The notes under the pieces are model-generated. The model saw only the letters and a program-made list of their open reading frames with translations. It had not been told where the DNA came from and did not search any database. Below are positions 20,571 through 21,042 of a DNA stretch of 29,556 bases, one piece after another. Positions within the stretch are counted from its first letter, which is position 1, and every line of letters starts with the position of its first letter. Source of the stretch: a virus; IMG/VR virus record IMGVR_UViG_3300033571_007625, positions 1-29,556 of that record; one strand, written 5' to 3'. The position numbers and the translations under genes are program-made.

Positions 20571-20639
20571 AAGGGGTGTGGATTTAAGATAAGAAGATAA
20601 AAATAAAAAAAAATAATGCCGTATGGGATTACCACACCC
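20571..20639 (-). other. long-range inverted repeat / second hairpin in the leader of the 20562 gene
   Basis: GGGGTGTGG (20639-20631 on the minus strand) pairs with CCACACCCC (20579-20571), a perfect 9-base-pair stem around a loop of about 51 bases that is very A/T-rich. The 3' side is followed by TTTTTATTTTATG, so it resembles a terminator placed against the start codon of the zinc-finger gene. It shares GGTGTGG/CCACAC sequence with the upstream terminator, so the two hairpins can compete. Confidence 0.6.
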
Positions 20640-20664
20640 CTCTAATATAAATATCCCTTAAATG

Positions 20665-20697
20665 AAAAAAACCACACCTAGGGACTGATGTGGTTTT
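20665..20697 (-). terminator. terminator with a loop complementary to upstream RNA
   Basis: On the minus strand AAAACCACA pairs with TGTGGTTTT (9 base pairs) around a 12-base loop and is followed by three more T residues, TTTTTTT in all. The loop holds AGTCCCTAG, the exact complement of CTAGGGACT upstream at 20936-20928. Confidence 0.7.
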
Positions 20698-20745
20698 AAT
20701 AAACTTAAAATGGGAACAGAAATGAAATAAATCAAATCTATAATA

Positions 20746-20775
20746 TAAATATATGAAACCCTATGTGCTTGTCAA
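20746..20775 (-). promoter_or_regulatory. internal promoter-like site in the non-coding segment
   Basis: TTG at 20775-20773, a 19-base spacer and TATATTTA at 20753-20746. It shares the surrounding TTTCATATATTTAT with the upstream promoter at 21012. A transcript from here would run through the 20665-20697 terminator into the zinc-finger gene. Confidence 0.55.
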
Positions 20776-21011
20776 GTAAATCAGTAAACTTGTTTTCCAA
20801 GAAGGGAAATTTCTCTTTTAGGTAAGAAAGTCAAGTCCCCCAGCCCCCATAACATTTTAGTTAGTAGAGGTAGGTGGACTCACCATCTTCAAGAGAATAA
20901 TCTCTTTTGAGGCTCACAACGCTCACAAGTCCCTAGAAAGAGCAAGTGTGATTTAAGAATCCTTCTTGTCTGGGAAGGTCAAGTTTCCAACCTTCAATCC
21001 CATCTTACTCA

Positions 21012-21042
21012 TAAATATATGAAATCAGAAAAAGAGAAACAA
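21012..21042 (-). promoter_or_regulatory. promoter-like site for the structured RNA
   Basis: TTG at 21042-21040, a 20-base spacer and TATATTTA at 21019-21012, one mismatch from TAnnTTTG. It begins just after the stop of the 63-residue gene. Confidence 0.6.

Follow-up and report, generated by a model that had tools for sequence, protein, structure and literature searches.

ROOL (Rumen-Originating, Ornate, Large) RNAs are phage-borne and highly structured, with pseudoknots and a conserved kissing loop, and the linker between their structured 5′ and 3′ parts shows no sequence conservation (PMC12286853). GOLLD RNAs are also phage-borne, and their variable linker can carry other genes, namely tRNAs (PMC12286853). 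OLE RNA is ornate and dimeric and contains a kissing loop (PMC12286853), and the HK022 put RNA is a cis-acting antiterminator (PMC9378689). Long-range loop-loop contacts supported by evolution are known for few phage RNAs. The predicted RNA described here is architecturally reminiscent of ROOL and GOLLD and a member of neither.

The locus lies in a stretch of 29,556 bases (the window), the IMG/VR record of a water-borne virus whose packed genes run on the minus strand. A recoded genetic code was considered and rejected, as the genes have uninterrupted reading frames under the standard code. Phages of Bacteroides and Parabacteroides, and of Flavobacterium too, are among the matches listed for the terminase, and the portal protein of one RNA-bearing relative (L030) matches Nonlabens phages only, which points to Bacteroidota as the probable host of both the window phage and its RNA-bearing relatives. 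No ORF of at least 40 aa starts within 20640–21040 on the minus strand, in agreement with the earlier note on this DNA, which had described a gene-free segment in a packed genome.

This segment is predicted to specify a structured minus-strand RNA of ~340 nt, from about 21010 to 20660 (Table 1). The minus strand folds more stably than expected from shuffles (z = −4.0), and exceeds the plus strand in this respect (z = −1.8). A TTG is found 20 nt upstream of the promoter-like TATATTTAT box, at 21040–21042, and transcription would start just after the box. The earlier note had placed a promoter at one end of the segment. A box of this kind occupies the corresponding site ahead of the RNA in nearly all copies, but the number of TATATTTAT-like boxes in the window (four exact matches, with 14 of 15 near matches on the gene strand) is not above chance, and the best sigma-70-like match (11/12) lies not at the RNA 5′ end but inside the region, at 20775–20748 on the minus strand. 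The box within the linker is retained in L002 and L026 and could yield a short RNA bearing the kissing hairpin alone.

Table 1. Features of the window around the predicted RNA, in minus-strand order, and kissing pairs of the window and its relatives
Feature	Position	Strand	Sequence	Remark
Portal gene	23017–21884	minus		
188-aa gene, then 63-aa gene, then gene-free region		minus		downstream of portal gene
Promoter-like box	21011–21019	minus	TATATTTAT	directly before predicted RNA 5′ end
P0, 5′ hairpin	20974–20995	minus	GAAGGT..ACCTTC	stem covaries (AAGGT/ACCTT, AGGGT/ACCCT); loop contains AAACTTG (20986–20980)
P1, 5′ strand	20961–20968	minus	CAAGAAGG	pairs with 20798–20805
P3 hairpin	20914–20951	minus	UCACA..GCUC-loop-GAGC..UGUGA	98–100% of cells paired
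Kissing strand 1	20928–20936	minus	CTAGGGACT	9-mer in P3 loop
P4 hairpin	20891–20907	minus	AAGAGA..TCTCTT	retained despite sequence changes in relatives
P5 arm	20821–20884	minus	GGTGAGTC (20884–20877)	with GACTT/ACC around 20840–20821
P1, 3′ strand	20798–20805	minus	CCTTCTTG	pairs with 20961–20968
Pseudoknot strand, 3′ of core	20786–20792	minus	CAAGTTT	exact 7-nt pair with P0 loop AAACTTG
Variable linker	20698–20785	minus		core to kissing terminator
Second promoter-like box	20745–20753	minus	TATATTTAT	within linker; predicted
Terminator hairpin	20668–20697	minus	AAAACCACATCAGTCCCTAGGTGTGGTTTT + T-run	bears kissing loop; terminator scan
Kissing strand 2	20678–20686	minus	AGTCCCTAG	loop 9-mer
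100-aa gene	20562–20260	minus		paired CxxC motifs; after gene-free region
Small, terminase and tail-like genes				beyond 100-aa gene
Terminase large subunit	14781–13510			
Kissing pair, window			CUAGGGACU/AGUCCCUAG	
Kissing pair, L026			UCUAGGGA/UCCCUAGA	
Kissing pair, L035			GGGACUUGU/ACAAGUCCC	
Kissing pair, L036			AGGGACUUG/CAAGUCCCU	
Kissing pair, L011			AGGACUUGU/ACAAGUCCU	
Kissing pair, L004 and L006			ACGGACUUA/UAAGUCCGU	
Kissing pair, L003, L005, L007 and L021			AUGGACUUA/UAAGUCCGU	one G-U
Kissing pair, L017 and L018			UCGGGACUUA/UAAGUCCCGA	
Kissing pair, L075 and L081			GGGACUUA/UAAGUCCC	
Kissing pair, L083				10 nt, shifted register, in terminator loop

Related copies were found at more than 12 distinct phage loci in varied gene contexts, once inverted relative to the portal gene (L011). 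Searching with the portal retrieved 25 loci, and two of these, L002 and L026, can be aligned over the RNA region; a scan with the 18-mer TCTAGGGACTTGTGAGCG detected this core in phages whose surrounding genes differ (L028–L030), further patterns gave L032–L036, and a model built from ten copies (R1) gave L011 together with weak matches in L004 and L006. Another pattern, combined with GGACTT repeats, yielded L017/L018, L074, L075, L081, L083, L098, L121 and L129. The diverged copies in L003–L007 occupy the same site as in the window, between homologues of the 63-aa and 100-aa genes. On the distant lineage as a whole (L003–L007, L017, L083, L098, L121) R1 scores at most 9–19 bits, and its kinship is suggested by the identical location in L003–L007, by motifs and apical arms in common, and by the kissing pair. 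Common to the copies are the TATATTTAT box, the 5′ hairpin, P3 and usually a downstream hairpin with a loop complementary to that of P3, a hairpin that is often the terminator. Cultured phages gave only short chance matches at the nucleotide level, and Nonlabens phage P12024S, whose portal is the closest to that of L030 among cultured phages, gave no clear match in the 10.4 kb searched. Eighteen pattern-scan matches in bacterial genomes were judged by their context to be due to chance. The contigs of L028, L029, L034 and L035 stop within or near the RNA, where the conserved sequence possibly breaks assembly. Rfam cmscan of the window and six relatives gave no match at gathering thresholds, and only unrelated weak matches were obtained at E ≤ 5 for the window region and L030; the earlier note likewise had not recognised a known family.

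The helices of the predicted core are supported by covariation in both lineages. In the first lineage, P1, P3 and P4 show two-sided changes at eight pairs (covariation 0.188 vs. 0.086 ± 0.013 when shuffled), and P0, P1 and the pseudoknot together score 0.216 (shuffled, 0.083 ± 0.025); in the distant lineage, 13 of the 14 pairs of P3 and P5 change on both sides (0.587 vs. 0.194 ± 0.038). P1 covaries at its inner end, and in L011 a G-C pair of P1 becomes A-U. Compensatory changes occur at five pairs of P3 in the first lineage, and in the distant lineage all six P3 pairs covary and seven of eight P5 pairs show compensatory changes. For P4, 70% of cells are paired on the automatic alignment; alignments A4, A5 and A6 were excised by hand. 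Of 16 copies, most have a negative fold z-score on the sense strand (not so L032, with z = −0.1), and in several of these fold stability shows no strand specificity.

The P0 loop forms a predicted pseudoknot with the strand 3′ of the core, as AAACUUG/CAAGUUU in the window and as UAACUUG/CAAGUUA or UACUUG/CAAGUA in relatives. In the L029/L030/L033 lineage the pair is replaced by GCCGACU/AGUCGGC, that of L030 being read from the sequence. The pseudoknot is supported in the window lineage and in this one.

The P3 loop has the consensus nnGGGACUUr across the copies. GGGACUU is present twice in the core, in this loop and in P5 (GGGGACTT at 20840–20833 in the window), and both copies are altered together in L006. 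The motif may be complementary to a conserved stretch of 16S rRNA; a 7-mer match of this kind is not significant. Most first-lineage copies also contain the A-rich AAAAGA twice, each complementary to one and the same UCUUUU. The variable apical arm of P5 is of two types, CUAG-rich and G-rich, the latter found in the window; they are swapped between the window and L002, and also between L004 and L006. At 20842–20876 the exchange with L002 is between phages that are otherwise 97–99% identical, which suggests recombination or modular swapping.

The window terminator consists of an 11-pair hairpin and a T-run, and its 9-mer comprises the 8-nt loop and one stem nucleotide. The complement in the P3 loop is exact and 241 nt away (written on the plus strand, the two 9-mers are CTAGGGACT at 20678–20686 and AGTCCCTAG at 20928–20936). 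A 9-nt complement to the terminator loop within the upstream 303 nt arises in 114 of 5000 dinucleotide shuffles (2.3%, p ~0.02), so the window match by itself is suggestive and the homologues decide. The kissing terminator is conserved in L002, and also in L026 with both stem and loop altered. Among the relatives the two loops change in concert (GGGACUUG/CAAGUCCC, CGGACUUA/UAAGUCCG, AGGACUUGU/ACAAGUCCU, UCGGGACUUA/UAAGUCCCGA). A downstream hairpin loop complementary to the P3 loop GGACUU region over 7–10 nt is present in the window and 11 relatives (L026, L003, L004, L006, L011, L017, L035, L036, L075, L081 and L083); in L098 and L121 the pairing is weaker, and only with G-U. In the kissing pair 88.9% of cells are paired (shuffled, 80.5 ± 1.6; slid versions, 16–47%). 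Covariation over 12 rows is 0.232, against 0.079 ± 0.025 for shuffles, none of which scored as high; because partners were sought by complementarity, mostly through an AAGTCC seed, the six central pairs arise partly by construction, and the evidence for the predicted contact is the change at flanking pairs and the recurrence of hairpin loops. One position shows GC in eight rows, CG in two, AU in one and UG in one; another shows AU in seven, GC in three and GU in one. Compared with random segments of the same phage, such a match is rare in most cases (fraction 0 to 0.054; 0.14 in L003). In this comparison a cut-off on loop length shut out the 24-nt loop of L011, which was therefore counted as a non-match; its partner was found by a wider search.

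Not every copy has a recognizable partner. L030, L074 and L129 contain the P3 loop, and a downstream partner was sought and not found; five further copies (L029, L032, L033, L034, L071) are truncated by contig ends before the partner region. In L075, L081 and L121 the partner is preceded by a second promoter-like box, seems to form part of the following gene's leader, and perhaps belongs to another transcript. The earlier note had described a terminator at the other end, an exact complement of its loop about 240 bases upstream and several further hairpins, and had proposed a loop-loop interaction; the observations are confirmed and the proposed interaction is supported, and the alignment that it had suggested as a check on compensatory 9-mer changes gave the covarying loops reported above. 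It had contained neither the 5′ pseudoknot nor the second GGGACUU copy, the wide distribution or the variable small-gene slot.

Our judgement leans slightly towards a new, self-contained family of phage non-coding RNA, with a window copy of about 340 nt. Comparison among the copies shows the conservation, helices, pseudoknot and kissing pair of this predicted RNA, and we hold the structure with high confidence; its stand-alone role is more tentative. Starting from its own promoter, the RNA would form a 5′ core of P0, P1, P3, P4 and P5, closed by the pseudoknot between the P0 loop and the sequence just 3′ of the core. The P3 loop would then kiss the loop of the 3′ hairpin, which in the window is also the terminator, so that the 3′ end doubles back onto the core and the intervening linker is left free to vary and, in some phages, to hold small genes. 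Transcription is presumed, as is formation of the contact in cis; the joining of two molecules is equally possible. We infer that the RNA acts as an independent folded particle and does not serve to switch a downstream gene. Each stand-alone copy closes with a terminator of its own, and the next gene in L011 and L035 is convergent, so downstream-gene control cannot be the common role, and these convergent genes argue for a stand-alone RNA. Most likely it would be expressed in the course of infection and play a structural or trans-acting part, as proposed for ROOL and GOLLD, while copies directly followed by ORFs could be leaders instead. Self-assembly through kissing loops into an RNA-only particle, with the linker or small genes as cargo, seems unlikely; the paired GGGACUU copies and the self-complementary CUAG arms would suit intermolecular contacts, and such a particle, if real, would be a third type of RNA assembly in phages, smaller than those of ROOL and GOLLD.

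The linker may be no more than a short spacer or may reach several hundred nt, and complementarity is retained with core-partner spacings of up to ~800 nt. L002 (57 aa), L075, L081 and L083 have small ORFs in the interval from core to 3′ partner, which is consistent with an mRNA whose ends are joined: an optional cassette of small genes would lie between the 5′ core and the 3′ kissing terminator, and the joining would protect the mRNA or control how it is translated. However, the slot is without a gene in the window, L026, L006, L011, L035 and L036, so the RNA is kept without cargo, and we consider this alternative unlikely as well. Given this range of linkers, the small genes are optional and the RNA is the constant part. 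The ORF of L002 (4079–4252) has no counterpart in the window and resembles, by eye, small ORFs that follow the RNA in L030 and L032. Small genes after the RNA in L017 (7349–7543), L071, L083 (5064–5336) and L121 look by eye like short DNA-binding regulators, and those tested gave nothing above Pfam cut-offs. A gene adjoining the RNA in L030 (9081–9623), L032 (3086–3607) and L033 (2961–3476) has, by eye, a nucleotidyltransferase-like GSL..DMD motif, with no Pfam match for the one tested. A second structured element, comprising a promoter-like box and the stem AGGGGTGTGG/CCACACCCCT, precedes the 100-aa gene of the window (20572–20655, minus strand); its loop TAATCCCAT is an 8-nt complement of ATGGGATT at 21003–20996, near the RNA 5′ end, and a similar leader is present in L003, L006, L026, L075 and L081.

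A promoter-proximal leader that acts on RNA polymerase in cis, in the manner of HK022 put, and carries transcription into the following genes is slightly less probable still. The core begins directly after a promoter-like box, and no terminator lies near the core in L030, L074 and L129, where genes come next; against this, many copies are closed by a terminator of their own, and read-through in L011 and L035 would produce only RNA antisense to the convergent gene. Pairing in trans, in which the core RNA would kiss a second short transcript (from the 20745–20753 box or the leader of the next gene) and one would regulate the other, is improbable. Such a box separates core and kissing hairpin in the window, L002 and L026, and the partner lies in a next-gene leader in three relatives, but L035, L036 and L006 have no box between core and partner.

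Equally doubtful is the switch put forward in the earlier note, in which a local partner of GGACT would compete with the kissing contact, and that contact would stabilise or break the terminator. The kissing loop is indeed the terminator loop in the window, L002, L026 and L083. The local AGTCC (20877–20881) is, however, AGTCA in L002, the nearest relative, so the data do not support an alternation between local and distant pairing. A general effect on the terminator likewise found no support: in most other lineages (L003, L004, L006, L011, L017, L035, L036 and L098 among the copies) the kissing hairpin is separate and ahead of the terminator, and the gene past it is convergent in L011 and L035. 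Finally, an ordinary terminator whose 9-nt complement upstream arose by chance, as found in the small fraction of shuffles given above, is largely refuted by the coordinated changes across lineages and the matching loops in 12 copies, and is highly improbable.

The folded, stand-alone RNA that we favour resembles ROOL in being phage-borne and structured, with pseudoknots, a kissing loop and an unconserved linker, but at ~340 nt it is about half the size of ROOL (659 nt), and it has no Rfam match even at relaxed E-values. It shares with GOLLD a phage-borne nature and a gene-bearing variable linker; GOLLD often exceeds 800 nt; the slot of the window family carries small protein genes, and the RNA again has no Rfam match. 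ROOL and GOLLD are often found near tRNA islands in phages, whereas a scan of the window alone gave no tRNA genes. Both ROOL and GOLLD form homo-oligomeric RNA cages. From OLE it is set apart by the lack of an Rfam match. HK022 put is, similarly, a folded phage RNA acting near its promoter, and the window RNA follows a promoter-like box; put RNA is much shorter, and stand-alone copies of the window family, unlike put, end at their own terminators, before a convergent gene. The modest length of the window RNA suits it to probing and structural studies, and its natural variants already hold compensatory changes. It could thus serve to test whether phage RNAs with kissing loops of the ROOL and GOLLD type form a wider class, and what their purpose is.
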